A DNA stretch of 64,000 nucleotides from Nitrososphaerota archaeon (lineage in GTDB: Archaea > Thermoproteota > Nitrososphaeria > Nitrososphaerales > Gagatemarchaeaceae). Shown here piece by piece: positions 2 through 62,535 of the stretch (the stretch's first letter is position 1; every line of letters begins with the position of its first letter). The stretch spans positions 1 to 64,000 of the forward strand of contig JACQFN010000008.1 of NCBI GenBank assembly GCA_016200045.1, read 5' to 3'. The position numbers were made by a program, and so were the translations under genes. A model generated the notes under the pieces. That model saw nothing but the letters and a program-made list of their open reading frames with translations. It ran no database searches and had not been told where the DNA came from.

Positions 2-1726
2 AGAGAAAAGGAGACGCGCCGAGCAGAGGAAAAGGTCCTCGAGAGGCAGACTAGGGATCGTGAAGAGGGGGAGGAGAAGAGCAAGAAGGACGACGAAAAG
101 AAGAGGAAAGCTATGGTCGAGAAGCCCGACAAGCCGACTCTCTCAAGGATACTCGGGCGCAAACAAGATGGACAAGAAATTACCTTCCCTCGCACTGGCA
201 GGCCGGTTCCTCCAAGTTGGAAAATCCTAGAGAGATATCCCCTTCACGCAGCTTTTGTGTACGCGACGGTGGCAGAGGACCCGACGGGCACGAACAGGAC
301 TTACTTCCTTGACGAAGTTCCGCTTTCGGATTCCGAAGCTGAGACCTACACCCTTCTCATGAACGCGCTTGAGACAGAACTCGCAGTTCCGCGGAAACTG
401 GTCGATGCGAACGAATATTTCGACCAGCAATCCAGGAAGATCGCCGCAAAGTACTCGATTGACTTGCCAGCTCTCCCATGGGCTAAGATACTTTACTTTA
501 CCCAAAGGGATGTGGTCGGCTTCGGGGAGCTGGACGGGTTCATGAGGGACCCGAGCATCGAGGACATCTCGGTCGACGGCTTCGGCAAGCCCGTCTTCAT
601 CTACCACAACAAGTACGAGAGGATTCCGACAAATGTTTCGTTCGAGGACGGAGATGCCGTGAGCGAACTCATCGGCAGGTTCGCGCACATCTCCGGCAAG
701 CACGTCTCGACTGCGTTCCCTATAGTGCAGGGTACCCTTCCGGGCGGGCACAGGATGATCGCCACCTTCATGACCGAGGTCTCGCCGAAGGGCGGGACCC
801 TGAACATCAGGAGGTTCAGAGAGGACCCCATCACCATAGTCGACATGCTGAACTTTGGTGTCCTCGACTACAATCTCGCAGCGTACACATGGCTCTTGAT
901 GGAGAACAGGGCCGTCGCCATGGTTGTCGGGGCCACCGGAGCTGGGAAGACGACAATGCTGAACGCCCTCCTTACGATGGTCAGGACCAACGCCAAGATC
1001 ATCACGATCGAGGAAGTGCAAGAGCTCAATGTGGCGCACCCGAACTGGACGCCATTCACCTCAAGGGAGAGGTACGGTGTGACGGAGGAGGGCCCTGGAG
1101 AAATCGGGCTCTTCGACCTTGTAAAGGCCGCGATGAGGATGAGGCCGGACATTGTCGTAGTGGGCGAGGTCAGGGGAGAGGAGGCGTACGTCCTCTTCCA
1201 GGCCATCAGCACGGGCCACGGTGGGTTGTGCACCCTCCACGCTGATGATGCGCAGTCGGCCATCCAGAGGCTCGTGTCGAAACCAATGGACGCGCCGCCG
1301 TCATTCATCTCATTCCTTGACCTTGTCTACACCGTCAGGAGGGTCGCCTTGCCCACTCCCGAAGGAGGCGCGAGGGCGGTCAGGAGGGTCATCTCTGTCG
1401 ATGAAGTGAACGGGGTTGGTGACTACACGCGGATATTTACATGGAATCCGGCCACGGACACGCAATCGGCGATCCCGCTCAAGAACAGCCGGAGACTCCA
1501 GAAGATCGCGAACGACCAGAATATTACAATCTCTGAGGTCGAAGAAGAAATCCGGAGGAGAGGGGTAGTGCTTGAGTGGATGCAACGGAAGGGAATCAGG
1601 AACTTCAAGGAGATCACCCCGCTCTTCGAGGCATATGTGAACGACCCGAAGGCCACATACCAGAGGGCGCTCAAAGAACTAGAAACAATTCGGAGAGTGG
1701 GCCCCAGCACCACAAGAGTGGCATAA
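2..1726 (+). CDS. Type II/IV secretion ATPase (ArlI/FlaI-TadA like), 5' end cut by window edge
   Basis: Hexameric ATPase expected to power an archaellum-, pilus- or Tad-like machine at the inner face of the membrane. Counting from the first in-window ATG (113): Walker A GATGAGKT at residues 273-280, acidic pair EE at 300-301, Walker B RPDIVVVGEVRG at 343-354, His box GHGGLCTLHADD at 368-379. The same frame is open without a stop back to base 2 and encodes a very charged Lys/Glu/Arg-rich stretch, so the protein probably begins upstream and ATG 113 may be internal. The stop is 2 nt before the GTG of the platform gene, the usual ArlI-ArlJ pairing. No pilin or archaellin gene is visible nearby, so the machine's product is unknown. 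Confidence 0.9.
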   Translation, partial: REKETRRAEEKVLERQTRDREEGEEKSKKDDEKKRKAMVEKPDKPTLSRILGRKQDGQEITFPRTGRPVPPSWKILERYPLHAAFVYATVAEDPTGTNRTYFLDEVPLSDSEAETYTLLMNALETELAVPRKLVDANEYFDQQSRKIAAKYSIDLPALPWAKILYFTQRDVVGFGELDGFMRDPSIEDISVDGFGKPVFIYHNKYERIPTNVSFEDGDAVSELIGRFAHISGKHVSTAFPIVQGTLPGGHRMIATFMTEVSPKGGTLNIRRFREDPITIVDMLNFGVLDYNLAAYTWLLMENRAVAMVVGATGAGKTTMLNALLTMVRTNAKIITIEEVQELNVAHPNWTPFTSRERYGVTEEGPGEIGLFDLVKAAMRMRPDIVVVGEVRGEEAYVLFQAISTGHGGLCTLHADDAQSAIQRLVSKPMDAPPSFISFLDLVYTVRRVALPTPEGGARAVRRVISVDEVNGVGDYTRIFTWNPATDTQSAIPLKNSRRLQKIANDQNITISEVEEEIRRRGVVLEWMQRKGIRNFKEITPLFEAYVNDPKATYQRALKELETIRRVGPSTTRVA

Positions 1727-1728
1727 CG

Positions 1729-3447
1729 GTGAGCCAGAGCAGTTTCGAAGGTCCTGGACAGCCAGCTGTTCCTGTCTCTCTGAGCTTCTTCGACAGACTT
1801 ACGGCAGTGTCCTTCAGAATCTTCAAGTCCACGGCAAGGGGTCTCTCAAAATCGTTCCCGCGCTTGAAGCAGGACCTGCTGAGGTCGGACATGTCCGTAA
1901 CCCCTGAGGGACTGGTGTCCGTGGCCCTCCTCCTGACGGTGGTGTCAACGATCGTCGTAGGGGTGGTTGCGACAATTGTCCTGATCTTGTACGCGCAATT
2001 CGCAGTCCTGCTGTTGTTCCTTCTTCCCTTGGCAGTGTTTGGGACAGTCCTCTTCTCCCCCAGGTTCAGCGCCTTGGCGAGGGGGGGCAGGCTCGACAAC
2101 GAACTCCCGTTCGTGGTTGGTTTCATCTCCATCCTTTCGGGCGGCGGAGAAACCTTCGTGGAGGTCCTGAGGAGGCTATCGAACCTGAAAATCTTCCCGG
2201 CCGCGTCAAAGGAGTCCAACAGGGTGCTCGTCGACGTCGACATTTACGGGAGCGAGCCCATAACGGCGCTCGAAAAAGCAGCAGAACACAACCCGAACAA
2301 GTGGTACGCCGACCTGCTATCGGGCTATTCTACTGTCCTCAGGACCGGGGGGGACCACATCAACTACCTGAATCTCAAGCTGAAGGAGGTCTTCGAGGAG
2401 AGGGCCGTCAAGGTGAAGCGAGCCGCAGAAGTGACGGGGGCAATCGCCGAGGTCTATCTTATCGTGACGGTGGTTCTCGGGATAACCGTCTTCACTCTCT
2501 TTCTCGTCCAAACGCTGGTCGCTGGGTCGGAAGAAGGTCTGACCAACATCTTCCTATTTGCATTCATCATCGTTCCCGTAATCTCTCTGGTGTTCATCTG
2601 GGTGCTTGACGATACCCAGCCCAAGTACCCCTTTACTGACAAGAGGCCGTACAGGGTATTTGCTGTGACTTTGGCAGTCGGAGTGGTCGTATTCTTCGTC
2701 CCCCTTCCCATCAAGACATACCTTCACCTCGCGCTAGCCTTGACGGTGATTTCAGCACCTCCGGCGTTCTTTGCCACCAAATACTCTCGAGAGCGAAGAG
2801 GAATTGAGGGATCACTGCCGGACTTCATCAGAGACGTCGCTGAGGGGAGAAAGATCGGACTGCCCCCCGAAGCGAGCGTAGAGAGGCTGGTGGGTCGCGA
2901 TTATGGGCAGCTCTCGAAGTCGGTGAATTCGATGGGCTCCCAGTTGAGCTGGGGCCTTTCCTTGAAGAAGGTGCTCTCTTCCTTCACGAGCAAAGTCAGC
3001 AGCTGGGTCGCCAGGGCGGTCGCCACGCTCATGCTGGAGGTCGTCGAGGTGGGCGGAGGGACAGTGAAAGGCTTCGCGGAGATGGCGGACTTCACGAGAA
3101 GGGTGAGTTCCATGGAGAAGGAGTCTAGGTCGTCTCTTCGTGGTTACATTTTCATCGCATACCTCTCAGGGATAATGATAATCGTCTCCACCTACATCTT
3201 CATCTATTTCCTGCAGCAGGGGCAGGCCAGCGGGATAACTGGCGACGTTTCCGTGTTTCAGGTGTCTCCCGAAGTTGTCGATTTGCTCTTCACAGCTACG
3301 GTCTTTGAGGGATGGGTAATCGGCCTTGTAGCCGGGAAGATGGGGGAGAGCAGCGTTTCTGAAGGCTTCAAGCACGCCCTCATCATGGTGATATTCACGC
3401 TGGCGGCTGTGGGCATCGGCCAGACGTTCTTCCCAATACCTTTGTAG
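1729..3447 (+). CDS. Secretion platform membrane protein (ArlJ/FlaJ-TadC like)
   Basis: Polytopic membrane platform that partners the preceding ATPase. The frame stays open upstream, but the GTG at 1729, 2 nt after the ATPase stop, gives a 572-residue product starting VSQSSFEGPG. There are two T2SSF-like halves, each a cytoplasmic segment beside hydrophobic helices (about residues 60-115, 240-300, 315-365 and 480-570). A paralogous relic of its N-terminal third lies at 10452-10929, with the same FDRxTAxSFRIFK and DELPFVVGF core, so a second secretion locus probably once existed. The family call rests on the motif pattern and ATPase pairing. Confidence 0.87.
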   Translation: MSQSSFEGPGQPAVPVSLSFFDRLTAVSFRIFKSTARGLSKSFPRLKQDLLRSDMSVTPEGLVSVALLLTVVSTIVVGVVATIVLILYAQFAVLLLFLLPLAVFGTVLFSPRFSALARGGRLDNELPFVVGFISILSGGGETFVEVLRRLSNLKIFPAASKESNRVLVDVDIYGSEPITALEKAAEHNPNKWYADLLSGYSTVLRTGGDHINYLNLKLKEVFEERAVKVKRAAEVTGAIAEVYLIVTVVLGITVFTLFLVQTLVAGSEEGLTNIFLFAFIIVPVISLVFIWVLDDTQPKYPFTDKRPYRVFAVTLAVGVVVFFVPLPIKTYLHLALALTVISAPPAFFATKYSRERRGIEGSLPDFIRDVAEGRKIGLPPEASVERLVGRDYGQLSKSVNSMGSQLSWGLSLKKVLSSFTSKVSSWVARAVATLMLEVVEVGGGTVKGFAEMADFTRRVSSMEKESRSSLRGYIFIAYLSGIMIIVSTYIFIYFLQQGQASGITGDVSVFQVSPEVVDLLFTATVFEGWVIGLVAGKMGESSVSEGFKHALIMVIFTLAAVGIGQTFFPIPL

Positions 3448-10292: not shown

Positions 10293-10423
10293 TTACGATT
10301 GCGGTTCCTGAATATGTGCCGCTTGGATTCATGTTGACTAATTGAACGGTTGTGGAAAAGAGAAGTCTTCTTGCGGATGGTCGACGGGTTTGTCTGAATG
10401 TTGCACTTCGGCGAAGGATTGGG
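10293..10423 (-). pseudogene. Inverted fragment of the secreted-protein gene found at 15081
   Basis: These 131 bases match the reverse complement of 15189-15319 with only about five differences and one inserted A. It carries an internal part of the small secreted-protein gene, without start or end, fused to the glycosyltransferase relic on one side and near the secretion-platform relic on the other. The high identity suggests a fairly recent copying event. Confidence 0.8.
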
Positions 10424-10451
10424 ACATCAGGGGAGAATAGATTCGACCCTT

Positions 10452-10929
10452 CCGCTTACACCTTTCGACCGAGTCACCGCTCTCTCTTTCAGAATATTCA
10501 AGGGCCCAGCCCGGGCCGCCGCAAAAGGGAGTCCCAGACTGAAGGTCGACCTTCTGAAGTCGGACATGACTGTCACACCTGAAGGGCTTGTCTCGCTCGC
10601 CTTCTTCCTGACAACGGTTTCGATCGCCCCCACCGCCCTCGTCGTCGGGGTGCTCCTCGCCTTGGGTATCGCTTTGGGTCTTGTGTTCCTAGCGGTGCCG
10701 GTTCTAACTTTCTCTGTCACTATGTATTACCCCCACATCAGTCAATCCTCCCGCGCCAGTCGCCTCGATGACGAACTCCCTTTTGTTGTGGGATTCATGT
10801 CGATACTCGCGGGGGGGAGGGCAGTCTCTCGTGGCGGTCCTGAGGATGATATCGAACATGTCCATCTTCCCCGCTGCCTCGAATGAGGTCAGCCGCATCC
10901 TCCGTCCCTGCGGTCCCTCGGTGGTAGGA
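10452..10929 (+). pseudogene. Truncated, frameshifted ArlJ/TadC-like platform gene
   Basis: The translation LTPFDRVTALSFRIFKGPAR, then LLKSDMTVTPEGLVSLAFF and DDELPFVVGFMSILAGG, is plainly homologous to residues about 17-140 of the platform protein at 1729-3447. After a GGGGGGG run near 10811 the frame breaks. A neighbouring frame continues with SLVAVLRMISNMSIFPAASNE, the next conserved block, then ends at a stop near 10931. The remaining two thirds of the gene are missing. Confidence 0.85.
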
Positions 10930-32000: not shown

Positions 32001-32429
32001 TTAGGGGTAATTTGGCCCGGTAAGATTGGGGAGCAAGTTGCCGTATTCGTACCAATTGAGGGCATAAACAGCCGATGCGAGAAACATGACCATCATAGGA
32101 AGATAGAAGCTCCAACTTCTTTGGCGGTTGATGTAGAGTCCCAGAATGGCTACCGGAAAGCAGGTCAGAGTTGAGATGATTGAGGCCACCATTCCGTTTA
32201 GGTCTCCGATACACACTGGGTAGGTCTCATAGACATATCCTCCTGACTGGTAATAGCTGCATCGGCCCGAATTGAGGTCGCCCGCGCCAGACAAGTAGAA
32301 CAAGAGTAAGACAAGCGTTAGAAGGACTGTAATCACCGCCAATGCCGAGGCGATTCTCTTGGTAAAGCCCACGCCTTTGCTTTCGGTCTTCAAGGCTTTA
32401 GGCTCTTCTCGATGCGACCCATCTTCCAC
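32001..32429 (-). CDS. Three-helix membrane protein, unknown function
   Basis: A 142-residue protein with a charged N-terminus (about 1-24) and hydrophobic segments at about 27-48, 80-99 and 108-125. A short extracellular loop between the first two carries two cysteines (RCSYYQ, YPVCIG) that could form a disulfide. It lies between the inverted repeats at 31380 and 32479. No family recognised. Confidence 0.55.
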   Translation of the reverse strand: MEDGSHREEPKALKTESKGVGFTKRIASALAVITVLLTLVLLLFYLSGAGDLNSGRCSYYQSGGYVYETYPVCIGDLNGMVASIISTLTCFPVAILGLYINRQRSWSFYLPMMVMFLASAVYALNWYEYGNLLPNLTGPNYP

Positions 32430-32529
32430 TTAGTTAGCAGGCAAAGGGCCTCCACCTCTCCGCTGAGTCAGCAACCGCGCCTTAACAGGGAGAACTTGGA
32501 GGCCCAGCAACCGTCAACCTAACAGAGCC

Positions 32530-32607
32530 TTTTTCAGGGTTCTGTTAACTTGGGAGGCCACAGCCTCCAATCTCCGATTTCTGGAGCCTGTTAACTGACT
32601 GGACATG
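32530..32607. repeat. Left end of the IS: target duplication, outer and inner inverted repeats
   Basis: TTTTTCAG (32530-32537) is the left copy of the target duplication. GGTTCTGTTAACTTGG (32538-32553) is the outer terminal repeat, and CTGTTAACTGACTGGACATG (32588-32607) an inner repeat that starts 50 bp inside. Both repeats are exact inverted matches to the right end. GGTTCTGTT is the typical IS6-family tip. Confidence 0.92.
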
Positions 32608-32648
32608 CCTTCCGCGTTGTTTCTTGGTTCCAAAGACACTCAGACGAA

Positions 32649-32780
32649 ATGGTCGTATCGGGATTCGGCATGATGGTAGTCGGGACACTTCTGCTATTCC
32701 GACCCTACGAATTGGGGCTCTGGCTTGTTTGTGGAGGGGCGGTCGTCACCGCAATCGGCGGGGGGTTCAGGGCGGATTGA
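32649..32780 (+). CDS. 43-residue hydrophobic microprotein inside the IS
   Basis: ATG 32649 to TGA 32780 encodes VVSGFGMMVVGTLLLFRPYE and a second hydrophobic stretch, a two-helix hairpin pattern. It faces the membrane-protein gene tail-to-tail and overlaps its last roughly 76 bp on the opposite strand. No promoter is obvious. It may be real cargo or a chance frame. Confidence 0.35.
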   Translation: MVVSGFGMMVVGTLLLFRPYELGLWLVCGGAVVTAIGGGFRAD

Positions 32781-33445
32781 GCCTCCTTTCCCTTTGTCAA
32801 ATCAATCATGGTGGAGAATGCCTCTACGAAAACAAACAGGATGATTATGTAAGTCAAGGCCGTTTGAATCCGTGCATTCTTGGCGTTTTGGATGTCAACG
32901 AAGGATGCTACCGGAATCTTGTATTCGCTGTAAGTGTGGTCAACGCCCGTATTGTTCTCGAAGAAAATAGACAAAGTGGGCGAGTATTCCCCCGCCACAG
33001 GGAACACTATGGTATCCCCACTCACTATGCTCGCGGTGAGGACTCGATTGACCGCTGGCCCAACAAAGAGGACTACCTCTGGGAAGTTGCTGACAAGGCC
33101 CGTCTCATTCGACCATTTGACATTCGCATAGACCGCGCCGCTGATTCTGACATAGACAAACGCGACATTAAGACAATCGTTGAAGACTTCAGCGTGTGCG
33201 GTGTATGCTCTTACAGATGTGTTTGCCGCGAGAATCCCGTCATCTTTGAGTTGAATACTCACTTGGACACAGACCGGCCTTGTGTTGTCCGGATAGGTGA
33301 GAGTAAGAGGAACAAGCGTGGGTGGCGGGGCTGGATTGAGGAAGTTGTAGTTATCGGTTTGGACATCGGAGATGTAAGATATGCTTCCAACAACCAAGAC
33401 CATGAATACCCCGAGTCCCGCCCATCTGGTCTTCCTCAGATTCAG
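32705..33445 (-). CDS. IS passenger: membrane-anchored protein, unknown function
   Basis: From CTG 33445 (LNLRKTRWAGLGVFMVLVVG) the protein is 246 residues: a basic start, an N-terminal helix, a long extracytoplasmic beta-rich domain (about 35-190), a second helix (ALTYIIILFVFVEAFSTMI, about 202-220) and a Pro/Thr/Ser-rich tail. The first ATG in frame (33403) would cut the first helix in half. CTG overlaps the stop of the RHH gene as CTGA, the same geometry as ATGA couplings elsewhere here, hence the choice. No family recognised; its presence in an intact IS makes it cargo. Confidence 0.6.
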   Translation of the reverse strand: MNLRKTRWAGLGVFMVLVVGSISYISDVQTDNYNFLNPAPPPTLVPLTLTYPDNTRPVCVQVSIQLKDDGILAANTSVRAYTAHAEVFNDCLNVAFVYVRISGAVYANVKWSNETGLVSNFPEVVLFVGPAVNRVLTASIVSGDTIVFPVAGEYSPTLSIFFENNTGVDHTYSEYKIPVASFVDIQNAKNARIQTALTYIIILFVFVEAFSTMIDLTKGKEAQSALNPPPIAVTTAPPQTSQSPNS

Positions 33446-33579
33446 TCAGCCTTCTGCTTGAAGTATTCACCCAGAACTGCCCTTGCCGCCTCGGGAATTG
33501 TCTCCAATTTCCGCGCTTTGCGCTCTTGGTCGAGTGCCTTAAGCATCTCCGCCGAGACCGAAAGCATGATTCTCTCCAT
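33442..33579 (-). CDS. 45-residue ribbon-helix-helix regulator inside the IS
   Basis: The short ORF MERIMLSVSAEMLKALDQER, then ETIPEAARAVLGEYFKQKAD, has the strand-helix-turn-helix plan of RHH repressors. A Shine-Dalgarno-like GGTGGAGGTGG precedes ATG 33579. It lies between the element's membrane-protein gene and a promoter region dense in TAGG boxes, which also faces the transposase, so it probably represses both directions. Confidence 0.72.
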   Translation of the reverse strand: MERIMLSVSAEMLKALDQERKARKLETIPEAARAVLGEYFKQKAD

Positions 33580-33600
33580 CAAACTGGTTCCACCTCCACC

Positions 33601-33652
33601 AATAGGTATCAATAGGCACGTTAATATACCCTACTGCCTATACCTATTGATA
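33601..33652. promoter_or_regulatory. Divergent promoter and operator of the IS
   Basis: A central TTAATATACC (33621-33630) can act as TATA in both directions. On its left AATAGG occurs twice, 10 bp apart (33601, 33611). On its right TGCCTATACCTATTGATA (33635-33652) mirrors them; TATCAATAGG at 33607-33616 is the exact inverse of 33643-33652. Repeated short boxes at one-turn spacing are typical RHH operators. Confidence 0.65.
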
Positions 33653-33656
33653 TCAT

Positions 33657-33752
33657 ATGACCACCGAACAAGCCCGCTTCGAAATGACGAGGGACGAGTT
33701 CGAAGAGTGGGAAGCCTACCAAGAAAGGAAGAGGGAGATGGAGCGCGACTAA
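33657..33752 (+). CDS. 31-residue acidic ORF ahead of the transposase
   Basis: ATG 33657 to TAA 33752 encodes MTTEQARFEMTRDEFEEWEA and a charged helical tail. It begins about 27-30 nt after the TATA element, so it is the first possible product of the transposase transcript, and its stop lies 1 nt before ATG 33754. It may be a leader that couples translation of the transposase or a tiny regulator. Confidence 0.5.
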   Translation: MTTEQARFEMTRDEFEEWEAYQERKREMERD

Positions 33753-33753
33753 G

Positions 33754-34962
33754 ATGGGCGCCCTCTCCTTCCCCAAACTTTTGGAGGTTCGCGCTGTGAA
33801 AGGCAACCAGATTGCTCAGATTGAGGGACATGTCGAACGAGTCTCAGAGGGGCACTACCGCGTCCATTCACAAAGGTCGGACGCTTGGTATGATGTCTTT
33901 GCGACCGAGAAGGGGCTGAACTGTTCTTGTGCGGACTTCGTTTATCGCGCTGGCCTTCCGTTCTACAACGCCTCGCTCACCAAGCGCTTCAAGTGCAAGC
34001 ACATCTTCGCGGTCGAATTGTCCCACGCTCTGAGACAGGCTGTCGAAAGACAGGTCAAGATAGAGCTCGTGGGAGTCCAGACGTGCCTCTTCTGCTCTTC
34101 AAGCAAAGTCGTGAAGCATGGAGTCCTTCACAACCAAGGAGGGGACGTTCAGCGATACTCTTGCAAGGACTGCGGGAAGAGATTCACTCAGAACCTTGGT
34201 TTCGAGGGCATGAGGGCGAGCCCTCAGTCAATCACTCAAGCCATGCAACTCTACTTCACGGGCGAGAGTCTAAGGAACGTCCAGAAGTTCCTCAGGCTCC
34301 AAGGCGTGAACGTGTCCCACGTTGCAATCTACAAGTGGATTCGGAAGTATGTCGGGGTCATGGAGCGGTATCTTGACCAGATTACTCCGCAACTCTCGGA
34401 CTCTTGGAGGGCAGACGAATTGTATGTCAAGATTCGCGGGAACATGAAGTATCTCTTTGCGATGATGGACGACCAGACGCGGTTCTGGATTGCTCAGGAG
34501 GTCGCGGACAGCAAGGAGAAGCATGATGCTCGGAGCCTGTTCCACAAGAGCGCGGAGGTTGCGGGGAAGATGCCTCGCTTAGTGATAACTGACGGTCTCC
34601 ACGCGTATCGAGACGCCGCGAGGAAGGAATATCAGACGAACCACGGCCACTCTGGAGCCGTCCATGTCCGTGACATCGCTTTGAAGGGCGTGATTCACAA
34701 CAACAAGATGGAGCGCATGAACGGAGAGGTTCGGGACAGAGAGAAAGTAATGCGAGGACTCAAGCGGTCAGACACGCCGATACTGAAAGGGTATCAAATC
34801 TACCATAACTACATTCGACCCCACTCAGCACTTGGAGGAAAGACGCCAGCAGAACTCTGCGGGATAAACGTCCAAGGGAATAACAAGTGGCTGACTTTGA
34901 TTCAGAATGCCGCCCATGTCCAGTCAGTTAACAGCGAGACGAATACGGAGGACTCGGTCTGA
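33754..34962 (+). CDS. IS6/IS240-type DDE transposase with N-terminal SWIM zinc motif
   Basis: A 402-residue transposase. Domains in order: a SWIM-like motif (Cys57-x-Cys59 ... Cys81-x-His83), a zinc ribbon (Cys111/Cys114 ... Cys137/Cys140), a helix-turn-helix-like region (about 155-200) and the RNase H-fold catalytic core. Likely acidic residues are Asp221 (WRADELYVK), Asp280 (VITDGLHAY) and Glu320 (NNKMERMNGE). The C-terminus runs ALGGKTPAE and NKWLTLIQNA. Its 3' end contains the element's inner inverted repeat. The SWIM module on an IS6-type transposase is uncommon and may add DNA or protein binding. Confidence 0.9.
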   Translation: MGALSFPKLLEVRAVKGNQIAQIEGHVERVSEGHYRVHSQRSDAWYDVFATEKGLNCSCADFVYRAGLPFYNASLTKRFKCKHIFAVELSHALRQAVERQVKIELVGVQTCLFCSSSKVVKHGVLHNQGGDVQRYSCKDCGKRFTQNLGFEGMRASPQSITQAMQLYFTGESLRNVQKFLRLQGVNVSHVAIYKWIRKYVGVMERYLDQITPQLSDSWRADELYVKIRGNMKYLFAMMDDQTRFWIAQEVADSKEKHDARSLFHKSAEVAGKMPRLVITDGLHAYRDAARKEYQTNHGHSGAVHVRDIALKGVIHNNKMERMNGEVRDREKVMRGLKRSDTPILKGYQIYHNYIRPHSALGGKTPAELCGINVQGNNKWLTLIQNAAHVQSVNSETNTEDSV

Positions 34963-34993
34963 TGTCCTACCAAGTTAACAGAACCTTTTTCAG
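34915..34993. repeat. Right end of the IS: inner and outer inverted repeats, target duplication
   Basis: CATGTCCAGTCAGTTAACAG (34915-34934) is the exact inverse of the left inner repeat and lies within the transposase 3' coding region. CCAAGTTAACAGAACC (34970-34985) is the outer tip. TTTTTCAG (34986-34993) is the right target duplication. Inner-to-tip spacing is 51 bp here against 50 bp on the left. Confidence 0.92.
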
Positions 34994-35045
34994 AAAACCT
35001 TAAAGACACAGAGAAAGTCGGTTTTTTCAAGAGTTTACGCATAGT

Positions 35046-36302
35046 TTGGAAGTTAAGGTTCTGGGAGCCGCCAGGCAGGTCGGCCGCTCCGCGTTCCTCC
35101 TGTCGCACAAAGACAGCAAGATCCTGCTGGATTACGGGGCGATGACGACCAAAGTCCCTGGTTTCCCGATGCATGTGCCTCCGAAGGACATCAAGGCGAT
35201 TGTCCTCAGCCACGCGCACCTAGACCACTCGGGGGCAGCCCCGCTGCACTTCTTAGGAGGAAAGATGAAGATGCATGCGACCCCCGTCACGTCGGAGCTC
35301 TCCAACCTCCTGATACAGGATTTCATCAAGATCTCGGGCCAGTATCTCCCCTTCGAGTTCCTCGACCTGATGGCAATGAACTCGAACACGGTCAACCACG
35401 GTTACATGGAGCCGTTCCAGGTGGGGGACTTCACCGTGAGCTTCTACGACGCGGGGCACATCCCGGGCTCGGCGGTGATTGCAGTGGAGGCCGGGAACAA
35501 GAGGCTGATCTACACGGGGGACATCAACGGGGACGAAACGAACCTGCTTTCCGGGTCGTTGAAGAACCTGGGCGAGGCTGACATGGTGATCACGGAAAGC
35601 ACCTACGCCACTGCCGACCACCCGCACAGGTCAGAGGCAGAGCAGGGGCTCGTCGAGTTCGCCCGGACCGTAGTCGAAAGAGGAGGGGTGCTGTTGGTCC
35701 CTGCGTTCTCCGTCGGAAGGGCGCAGGAGATTGCGATGACCCTCGTAAAGTCAGGGTTCAGGCACCCAATAGCTATGGACGGGATGGCGCTGAAGGTCAA
35801 CGGGATACTGATGAGATACCAAGAGTATCTCAAGGACCCGACTGCTCTCAGAAGGACCCTCGAGACGATGGAAGAGGTGACGAGCTGGACCCAGAGGAGA
35901 AGGCTTGTCAAGAAGCCGGGCGTGGTCGTCTCCCCGGCCGGGATGCTAGTCGGAGGAGCTTCGATTTTCTACAACGAGCACCTCTCGATGGACGAGAAGA
36001 ACGGGATCGCCATCGTGAGCTTCCAGGTCCCGGGAACTCCCGGGAGGACCCTCATCGAGAAGGGACTGACGATATACAGAGGAAAGCCGACAAAGGTAAG
36101 GGCCGAGGTGAGGAGGTTCGACTTCTCTTCCCACAGCGGAAAGACCCCTCTCCTGAACGACCTGAAGGGGGTCGGAGGGTCTCCGAAGTTCCTCACCGTG
36201 CACGGCGAGGAAGCGTCTTGCCTGGCGCTCGCACAGGAGCTTCACGACGGGATGGGCGTTGAGGCCACTGCTGCGATGCCGGGACAAGAATTCGTAGTAT
36301 GA
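35046..36302 (+). CDS. Archaeal CPSF2-like beta-CASP nuclease
   Basis: A 418-residue metallo-beta-lactamase/beta-CASP protein predicted to process RNA 3' ends or degrade RNA. The zinc motif SHAHLDH is at residues 55-61. Later metal histidines are in DAGHIPGSA and the C-terminal FDFSSHSGK, with beta-CASP blocks VLLVPAFSVGRAQE and VVVSPAGMLVGGAS. There are no KH domains, so this is the short aCPSF2 type, not aCPSF1. It starts at TTG 35046. The new IS ends about 60 bp upstream, next to a CCTTAAAG box (34998-35005). Its stop overlaps the next ATG. Confidence 0.88.
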   Translation: MEVKVLGAARQVGRSAFLLSHKDSKILLDYGAMTTKVPGFPMHVPPKDIKAIVLSHAHLDHSGAAPLHFLGGKMKMHATPVTSELSNLLIQDFIKISGQYLPFEFLDLMAMNSNTVNHGYMEPFQVGDFTVSFYDAGHIPGSAVIAVEAGNKRLIYTGDINGDETNLLSGSLKNLGEADMVITESTYATADHPHRSEAEQGLVEFARTVVERGGVLLVPAFSVGRAQEIAMTLVKSGFRHPIAMDGMALKVNGILMRYQEYLKDPTALRRTLETMEEVTSWTQRRRLVKKPGVVVSPAGMLVGGASIFYNEHLSMDEKNGIAIVSFQVPGTPGRTLIEKGLTIYRGKPTKVRAEVRRFDFSSHSGKTPLLNDLKGVGGSPKFLTVHGEEASCLALAQELHDGMGVEATAAMPGQEFVV

Positions 36303-37829: not shown

Positions 37830-37951
37830 GTTAGGCGACCAACAGGGCCTTCGTCGCTTCTCGCCCTAGGGTTCTGTTAAGTTCTCGGTAGCTGGCTCGA
37901 AGTCGTCTCCCTGTTAAGCGTCGGTCGCTGACGTTGGTCTCCTCAAGTCTC

Positions 37952-38449
37952 TCATGAACTTACGATTAGTTGCCCGCTTTGCTCGAAGGCTTCAAGTGAG
38001 TCGAAGATGCCACTGTAGATTTGGAAAGTCCCTACCTGATTCGCACTAAAGGAGAATCTTTGGCTCTGATTCGGCCTCACTACGTTAGTCGTGGAATCAA
38101 AGTAATGGGCTATCTGGAATCCATGGGCCTGAATGTCGGTGTTGCACACCACCATGTTCACTGTCTGCCCCAGTTGGACATTTATCACGGGCCAATGAGT
38201 CTGAGGGACGCCGTGGTCTACGCTTTCGTTGTATCCCTTGCTGCTTGCTATGATGAGAAAGCCGCCCGCGGGCCTGACGCATGGAATTGAATTCGGAATC
38301 TGGTAGGTTCGATAGGCGTAGACTCCGAAAGCTATTCCTACCATCGCAACTAGTGCAACCGTGGCAATAACCCGCCATCTCAATGAGGAGAGTTTGGTGC
38401 GGGTGAGTCTTTTCTGTCTTTCGAGGCGTTCTGAATGAGAGTCAGCCAT
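37952..38449 (-). CDS. Membrane-anchored cupredoxin-fold protein lacking CuA ligands
   Basis: From ATG 38449 the protein has 165 residues: a charged N-terminus, one membrane helix (about 26-45) and a cupredoxin domain (about 60-165) clearly paralogous to the protein at 62059-62535. AHGFQIAHYF keeps the first His (109). The ligand loop reads YSGIFDSLEAFE where the relative has YCNIFCPVHKFM: Cys to Ser146, Cys to Asp150, His to Glu153, Met to Glu156. It can hardly bind CuA copper. The start overlaps the transposase fragment in another frame; TTG 38383 is an alternative. Confidence 0.68.
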   Translation of the reverse strand: MADSHSERLERQKRLTRTKLSSLRWRVIATVALVAMVGIAFGVYAYRTYQIPNSIPCVRPAGGFLIIASSKGYNESVDHGVPQTHWPVINVQLGQTVNMVVCNTDIQAHGFQIAHYFDSTTNVVRPNQSQRFSFSANQVGTFQIYSGIFDSLEAFEQSGQLIVSS

Positions 38450-38702
38450 TTGTTCTCCCCCCTCGACTTTGATTCCCGCGACCTCGGCGGGGGTCCTTCC
38501 ACCCAAGGGCCTCGTGAGGCCTCATGAAGTCATGGAATGGCTGATAGCCCTTCAGGATTGGGGTGTCCTTCCGCTTGAGCCCTCGCATCACCTTCTCCCT
38601 GTCTCGGACTTCACAGTTGAGCCGTTCCATCTTGTTATTGTGAATCTGCCCTCCGAGCCTGATGTCTCGGACGTGCTGGCTCTGGGGGCCTTTGTTCGCT
38701 AG
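38380..38702 (-). pseudogene. C-terminal fragment of an IS6-type transposase
   Basis: The minus strand reads QHVRDIRLGGQIHNNKMERL, REKVMRGLKRKDTPILKGYQ and PHEALGGRTPAE, then NKWLTLIQNA, nearly matching the last third of the intact transposase at 33754. One extra base in CTTGGGTGGAAGG (about 38503-38515) breaks the frame, and everything before about 38702 is missing. Confidence 0.85.
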
Positions 38703-38785
38703 AACTCCTTCACGAAGGGGGTTGACGCCACGTTTATTTACCTCAGAAAAAACGCAGGGTTCAGCGGTACCGAGAGACGCTAGGA

Positions 38786-62058: not shown

Positions 62059-62535
62059 ATGGAGATAAGCAGACATGCGGTCCCAACAAGAAACTGGTGG
62101 ATAAGGCACGGCATGAAGACTTCAGGGTGGTTCGCCGTCATGGCTGTCATCGGCCTGACGGTCTTGACTGGGGCGTACTCGTATTACTCCCAGTCGGTTC
62201 CGTCAGACTCTTTTGGATGCAGCTCACCTCAGGGCTATCTTACCATCGTCTCAGATGCGTCGGGATACAATGATAGTATAAACCAACCCCTGCCCTGGCC
62301 GGTTATTACGGTTCAGAGGGGCAGCGTTGTGAACCTCTTCGTTTGCAACAACGACGGTTCTTCTGCCCACGGATTTGCCATCGACCACTACCTGGTTTCC
62401 GGAGCCGCAATTGCTCCGGGGAGAAACTTCAGGGTGTCATTCGTAGCAGACCAAGCGGGGAACTTCACCATTTATTGTAACATCTTTTGCCCCGTCCACA
62501 AGTTCATGGTCGGACGACTTGTTGTGAGTCCCTGA
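62059..62535 (+). CDS. Membrane-anchored CuA-like cupredoxin
   Basis: A 158-residue protein with one N-terminal membrane helix (about 21-41) and an extracellular cupredoxin domain. The ligand set is His104 (SAHGFAID), Cys140, Cys144, His147 and Met150 (YCNIFCPVHKFM). This is a CuA-type loop one residue shorter between the second Cys and His than in the coxB product downstream. It is about 180 bp upstream of coxB on the same strand, so it likely passes electrons to the oxidase or helps copper loading. ATG 62113 would shorten the N-terminus. A ligand-less paralogue is at 37952-38449. Confidence 0.8.
   Translation: MEISRHAVPTRNWWIRHGMKTSGWFAVMAVIGLTVLTGAYSYYSQSVPSDSFGCSSPQGYLTIVSDASGYNDSINQPLPWPVITVQRGSVVNLFVCNNDGSSAHGFAIDHYLVSGAAIAPGRNFRVSFVADQAGNFTIYCNIFCPVHKFMVGRLVVSP

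Follow-up and report, generated by a model that had tools for sequence, protein, structure and literature searches.

Evidence for a group of cargo-carrying, IS6-related archaeal transposons placed just upstream of TATA boxes

A 64,000-nucleotide stretch of DNA from a Nitrososphaerota archaeon (contig JACQFN010000008.1 of assembly GCA_016200045.1, positions 1 to 64,000; hereafter the window) contains at 32538-34985 an IS6-like element that holds several genes besides its transposase. The locus raises the question of whether these genes are accidental passengers of an ordinary insertion sequence or parts of a different kind of transposon, and how such a transposon finds its place in the host genome. 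Our analysis indicates that the element is very probably an intact member of an IS6-related transposon group that combines fixed and exchangeable parts and is positioned upstream of the TFB recognition element (BRE) and TATA box of host genes. The fixed parts would be the tip site, often a subterminal copy of this site, and an IS6 transposase with SWIM and zinc-ribbon domains, and the exchangeable parts a small, divergently encoded DNA-binding regulator and a cargo module. As sequence comparison shows, each insertion duplicates 8 bp and lands 5 bp (3-7 bp) upstream of a host BRE/TATA, and new insertions enter the same 8 bp, giving rise to arrays. This large group of cargo-carrying, promoter-targeting archaeal elements is apparently undescribed.

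The window element is complete and 2448 bp long. Its tips, GGTTCTGTTAACTTGG, are identical over 16 bp, and the 23-bp arms of the left (32538-32560, plus strand) and right (34963-34985, minus strand) terminal inverted repeats are 91% complementary. A 20-bp inner inverted repeat, CTGTTAACTGACTGGACATG, lies 50 and 51 bp inward from the tips (32588-32607, plus strand, and 34915-34934, minus strand); its copies are 100% complementary and include CTGTTAACT, which is a second copy of the tip core. The same 8 bp, TTTTTCAG, stand outside both tips as a perfect direct repeat (32530-32537 and 34986-34993). A first-pass annotation, made from the DNA sequence alone, had described the 16-bp tips, the inner repeats and the 8-bp duplication, and all of them are indeed present. 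The element is single-copy in its genome, where the next transposase is only 38% identical; no convincing ends were found in the DNA examined around the latter.

A scan of GTDB genome contigs with the transposase returned 25 loci, nearly all from metagenome-assembled genomes (MAGs) of Thaumarchaeota/Nitrososphaerota and Bathyarchaeota, and the transposase was found in 107 of 400 genomes of the window's class. Elements were delimited by requiring terminal repeats and a perfect 8-bp duplication, which yielded, from Nitrososphaerota and a small number of Bathyarchaeota genomes, about 78 intact elements (50 in the first set, 15 from later loci, one of which was dropped, and 14 belonging to more distant transposases). 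The delimited sister elements are 1.9-6.9 kb long, and most have a GG tip with a CTGT core, with ACTTCTG or AGTTCTG in part of a sister clade. Since about 78 sister elements share this anatomy and have perfect 8-bp duplications, its origin by chance is excluded. Copies without cargo, for which the first-pass annotation had suggested a search, did not turn up: no intact copy among the roughly 78 delimited elements lacks cargo, and all hold substantial DNA beyond the transposase. Several candidates were rejected along the way. L022 (1363 bp) and L084 (1439 bp) had been taken for short cargo-less copies on the basis of chance tip matches without target duplications, and their full boundaries were located later; L030 (946 bp) proved to be internally deleted; and L134, a held-out element, was dropped before the final counts as doubtful, with 9 of 14 inverted-repeat matches and odd tips. 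The sister clade L206-L217, with tips ACTTCTG or AGTTCTG, has 8-bp duplications, large cargo and the same TATA spacing as the other elements.

The subterminal copy of the tip core, of which the window element has a clean form, recurs in the group, often near position 31 or 41. Subterminal sequences match the element's own tip core at a mean of 7.66 of 11 positions, versus 7.03 for the cores of other elements and 6.94 for shuffles, and matches of at least 9 of 11 occur in 22%, versus about 5% and 3%, respectively. Many elements may therefore have two transposase-binding sites per end, with the subterminal copy as the proposed second site.

The element boundaries were fixed without reference to TATA boxes, and inspection of the flanks revealed a TATA-like sequence next to the duplication. 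Among 80 free flanks, a TATA hexamer starts at offsets 5, 6 and 7 in 21, 9 and 18 cases (48 altogether), versus 0-6 matches at every other single offset, and the later-fetched loci repeated this pattern, with 11 matches at offsets 5-7 in 25 flanks. When the flanks were scored against YTTAWAWA as a fixed consensus, 34 of 62 sites had their best match within 100 bp at offset 5, and outward reading scored better than inward reading. With a score threshold, a box was present at offset 3-7 in 50 of the 62 testable sites, compared with about 5 expected from a background of about 0.04 per flank; this corresponds to P ~1e-43 if the sites are independent, which is not fully the case, as some elements share a promoter type. 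A separate set from the sister clade had the TATA box at the expected spacing in 14 of 14 sites. Beyond the box, 42 of 53 TATA flanks have an outward open reading frame (ORF) whose start is no more than 120 bp away. The median start lies 39.5 bp from the duplication, and 33 of the 42 start at 25-60 bp, which suggests a gene with a very short leader or none, starting about 35 bp past the TATA box. No tRNA genes were found as targets beside the TATA-side flanks. Insertion 5 bp (range 3-7 bp) upstream of the BRE/TATA box, with the core promoter left intact, thus has strong statistical support. Owing to this nearly base-pair placement upstream of the TATA box, the elements can spread without breaking host genes. 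The first-pass annotation was silent on the TATA target, and likewise on the arrays and the older tip described below.

What guides the transposase would be either promoter-bound TBP/TFB or the TATA/BRE DNA as such. It is plausible, at just under an even chance, that the group reads the basal machinery (TBP/TFB on BRE-TATA) as a landing signal in a Ty3-like manner, stacking elements that would shuttle regulator-plus-cargo modules (restriction-modification, Fic, proteasome-like and membrane proteins) among Nitrososphaerota. Direct recognition of an AT-rich motif (YTTAWAWA plus spacing) by the transposase, and not of bound TBP/TFB, is a serious though tentative alternative, which we rate somewhat lower than an even chance: all the evidence is at the level of sequence, and the site consensus amounts to the box itself. 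However, the TATA-side flanks lead to a gene that points outward in 29 cases, with its start about 40 bp off, and inward in 5, and genomes as AT-rich as these (32-35% G+C) should hold the motif in coding DNA too, yet few coding insertions were observed, although their scarcity could also stem from selection that removes them. The TATA-locked insertion makes the use of TBP/TFB by a prokaryotic transposase directly testable, and it might serve as a tool to place genes upstream of archaeal promoters without disruption.

To characterize the gene content of the elements, we combined codon-scored ORF calling with inspection and clustering. A slot for a regulator, in most cases immediately upstream of the transposase gene and in divergent orientation, is occupied by the window's ribbon-helix-helix (RHH) family (14-17 elements), by other RHH proteins, or by AbrB/MazE-like or zinc-ribbon proteins. 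The cargo is different in almost every element. Membrane proteins of several kinds are found in the window element and in L069, L070, L072, L077, L079 and L097; among other elements, L067 encodes a Tsp45I-type restriction enzyme and its methyltransferase, L078 a type II/IIG restriction-modification enzyme plus DUF3800, L112 a Fic protein (SoFic according to PADLOC) and L095 a nucleotide cyclase domain. Proteasome-like N-terminal nucleophile (Ntn) hydrolases are encoded in L082 and L108, with relatives in L113, L115 and L118; in these five elements, Ntn-hydrolase genes form a recurrent cargo beside an AbrB-like or RHH regulator. The regulator class underwent at least 18 changes on a tree of 49 transposases. 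L106, L107c and L115 have transposase DNA that is 82-85% identical and match in the transposase and, for the comparisons with L115, in one end (84-89%), while all else differs. As judged from such comparisons, elements whose transposases are nearly identical exchange cargo and small regulator. The passenger, which the first-pass annotation had regarded as conserved, is consequently not conserved, since nearly all elements differ in it and the class of regulator shifts as well. The regulator/cargo slot shows how modules, including restriction-modification systems, can move among ammonia-oxidising archaea and their relatives.

The genes of the window element fit into this scheme. The transposase (33754-34962, plus strand, 402 aa) is an IS6-type DDE enzyme that matches PF13610 above the cut-off (E=5e-16) and has the invariant residues in the alignment. 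Its Pfam matches are of the DDE_Tnp_IS240 and rve types, with none of the Mutator type. Its N-terminus comprises a SWIM-like domain (C57, C59, C81, H83; match to PF04434 weak and under its cut-off, E=0.011) and a zinc ribbon (C111, C114, C137, C140). The transposase start is preceded, at a distance of 1 bp, by the end of a conserved micro-ORF of about 31 aa (33657-33752, plus strand) that is present in 12 elements of the window's family. On the minus strand, a 45-aa RHH regulator, RHH-A, is encoded at 33442-33579; the gene alone scores below the Pfam cut-off (E=0.029) but belongs to a family that occupies the same place in many sister elements. The cargo gene (32705-33403, minus strand) is an ORF for a 232-aa membrane protein with a beta-rich domain and a C-terminal transmembrane (TM) segment. 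The first-pass annotation was thus right that an IS6-like element carries its own regulator and membrane-protein gene inside its repeats. Of the small ORFs, one of 43 aa with a hydrophobic stretch (32649-32780, plus strand), which runs antisense over the end of the membrane gene, is uncertain and has no independent support; the conserved micro-ORF had not been singled out. The annotation had further proposed to test whether the RHH and membrane-protein genes always lie inside the repeats. Of 30 RHH loci that were fetched, 26 have the transposase next door; in 46 family genomes, just two relatives of the membrane protein were found, and both lie inside elements.

These relatives, in L072 and L201, share the motif G.YSP.L.I.F.N.T and a layout with two TM segments; no match for the window's membrane cargo was obtained in Pfam or PADLOC. 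An in-frame CTG at 33445-33443 that overlaps the RHH stop (CTGA, 33445-33442) would give a 246-aa membrane protein, and translation from this CTG would supply the N-terminal signal anchor seen in the relatives. In L072 and L077, a small coiled-coil/TM reading frame without ATG, GTG or TTG overlaps the end of the RHH gene, and a CTG that overlaps the RHH stop (CTGA) could likewise be its start. Between the RHH gene and the transposase operon lies a divergent promoter (33600-33652) with operator-like 10-bp perfect inverted repeats (CAATAGGTATCAATAGG ... CCTATACCTATTGATATC) flanking a TATA-like stretch. Related repeats (ATACCAATNGATACCAATG) occur in other RHH-A elements, and L069 and L077 share a different motif. 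We infer that the RHH protein binds the repeats between its own gene and the transposase operon and would repress both divergent promoters. The membrane protein would be translated together with the RHH protein from one operon as a swappable passenger, and may provide an envelope or defence-type benefit to the host or exclude competing elements. Alternatively, the RHH and membrane proteins might form a toxin-antitoxin-like addiction module that stabilizes the element, given that RHH and MazE/AbrB-like proteins are common antitoxins and that the two genes are adjacent on the same strand with a possible CTGA overlap. We consider this improbable, because the same RHH family stands beside unrelated cargo, sometimes on the opposite strand, so that the constant pairing of toxin-antitoxin systems is missing, because the cargo differs where the regulator type is the same, and because the operator-like repeats cover the transposase promoter.

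At the window locus, the TATA box CTTAAAGA (34999-35006, plus strand) lies 5 bp from the duplication and starts 47 bp before the downstream host gene, which encodes a metallo-beta-lactamase/beta-CASP nuclease (35046-36302, plus strand; assigned by Pfam) and is present in 21 of 31 genomes of the genus. The box is conserved in about 20 sister genomes, where conservation of the promoter begins at the edge of the duplication and the upstream DNA is unrelated. Most sister genomes have no element at this promoter. In L152, L153, L163 and L164, tips or remnants of other elements occupy the identical spot, e.g., TTGACAGAGCC, CAATCCAG and AAAGGCTTAAAG in succession; L163 and L164 resemble each other and may go back to a single event. 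These data bear on the possibility that target choice is loose and that the position upstream of promoters merely reflects survival, with in-gene insertions purged. Most surviving insertions are intergenic, as this would predict, but survival can neither fix a spacing to one base (offset 5 in 34 of 62 sites) nor account for four sister species in which tips of other elements stand at exactly this position before the same gene, and we regard it as very unlikely.

Insertion into the same spot also leads to arrays. The tip of another element is abutted by 23 of 64 elements, with the 8-bp duplication alone in between (tip-8 bp-tip), and among 21 elements with one such flank, the TATA box is on the opposite side in 19. 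L107 (2643-11940) is a tandem array of three different elements parted by a shared 8-bp sequence, TGTTTCGA, next to one promoter. Arrays of this kind arise because insertion into the same TATA-adjacent 8 bp is repeated. In the window, the right tip of an older element (32515-32529, minus strand; reverse complement GGCTCTGTTAGGTTG) is parted from the window element by the 8-bp duplication alone. A 142-aa membrane ORF at 32001-32429 (minus strand) might be cargo of this older element.

Several observations weigh against a TATA-directed group with the proposed parts. About 12 of the 62 sites have no TATA box at the expected spacing, and a few of these lie inside or between genes; purging of in-gene insertions adds to the promoter bias, yet it cannot set a single-base spacing. 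The signal for subterminal repeats is moderate, with the difference in means (7.66 vs 7.03 of 11) given above. The AlphaFold model of the transposase is poor (11 rows, predicted local distance difference test (pLDDT) 57), and that of the membrane protein is worse still (3 rows, pLDDT 40).

Transposase, tips and duplication place the element with IS6, and its size, gene content and target set it apart from the family as described. With IS6/IS26 (PMC7986276, PMC6807381) it shares the DDE_Tnp_IS240 domain, GG tips with a CTGT core and the 8-bp duplication. In contrast to the single gene of IS6/IS26, the elements of this group have 2-7 kb with several genes, SWIM-like and zinc-ribbon domains, a divergent regulator slot, exchangeable cargo and a TATA-directed target. 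The transposase is not the sole gene of the window element, as is expected in IS6, since the RHH protein, the membrane protein and the micro-ORF are present. The IS6 review lists N-terminal zinc-finger extensions in clades h (Clostridia) and i, and one passenger-carrying member, ISDsp3, with no archaeal one (PMC7986276). That an ordinary, normally single-gene IS6 element trapped neighbouring genes by chance, as a one-off transporter IS for which ISDsp3 would be the sole precedent in that review, is hardly credible, because about 78 intact sisters in many genera all have extra genes and a regulator in a fixed divergent slot.

Placement at a fixed distance upstream of a promoter, with the gene intact, is shared with TnGBS, ISLre2 and ISKra4 (PMC3942029), bacterial elements with prokaryotic Mutator-like transposases that insert 15-17 bp upstream of the sigma-A -35 box; here, the transposase is from a different superfamily and archaeal TATA boxes are targeted at 5 bp. 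For archaeal ISH6, promoter-upstream insertion has been suspected from its AT-rich target (PMC3942029). The Ty3 retrotransposon (PMC8632968) also integrates with exquisite placement upstream of promoters, which is described as harmless targeting; it uses a retrotransposon integrase at Pol III genes, whereas we deal with a DNA transposon at protein-coding promoters. Tn7-like transposons (PMC8649781) similarly combine core transposition genes with variable cargo including defence systems, but they are larger and have a multi-protein machinery in place of a single IS6-type transposase. A survey of thaumarchaeal IS-like transposons, which concerns the same hosts and mentions IS6 (Krupovic 2019, PMC6563490), reports 1-2 genes for them and enters DNA transposons with passenger genes as 'not detected' in archaea; the group described here is a cargo-carrying archaeal DNA transposon group of that very kind. 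Nothing closer was found in the literature on TATA-directed transposition in archaea, with subscription papers and preprints outside the search.

Some further observations concern the group and the rest of the window. Four IMG/VR contigs (L202-L205) encode the transposase (51-55% identity), and the elements in L204 and L205 are bounded by intact ends and 8-bp duplications. These archaeal elements also occur in L012 (DAIDAO010000007.1), a MAG that genome placement assigns to the window's genus and whose title, 'bacterium isolate clean1925', looks wrong. The window itself holds a truncated second element of the same group (37870-38705), with the tip GGTTCTGTTAAGTTCTCGG at 37870, the inner site CTGTTAAGCGTCGG, a cupredoxin-like membrane-anchored gene as apparent cargo (37952 to about 38450, minus strand) and a C-terminal transposase fragment at 38469-38705. 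A cupredoxin-like host gene is located at 62059-62535. Finally, the ORF at 10398-10886 looks like a truncated paralogue: it resembles the beginning of an archaellum/secretion-type membrane protein that is encoded at 1576-3447, beside an ATPase.

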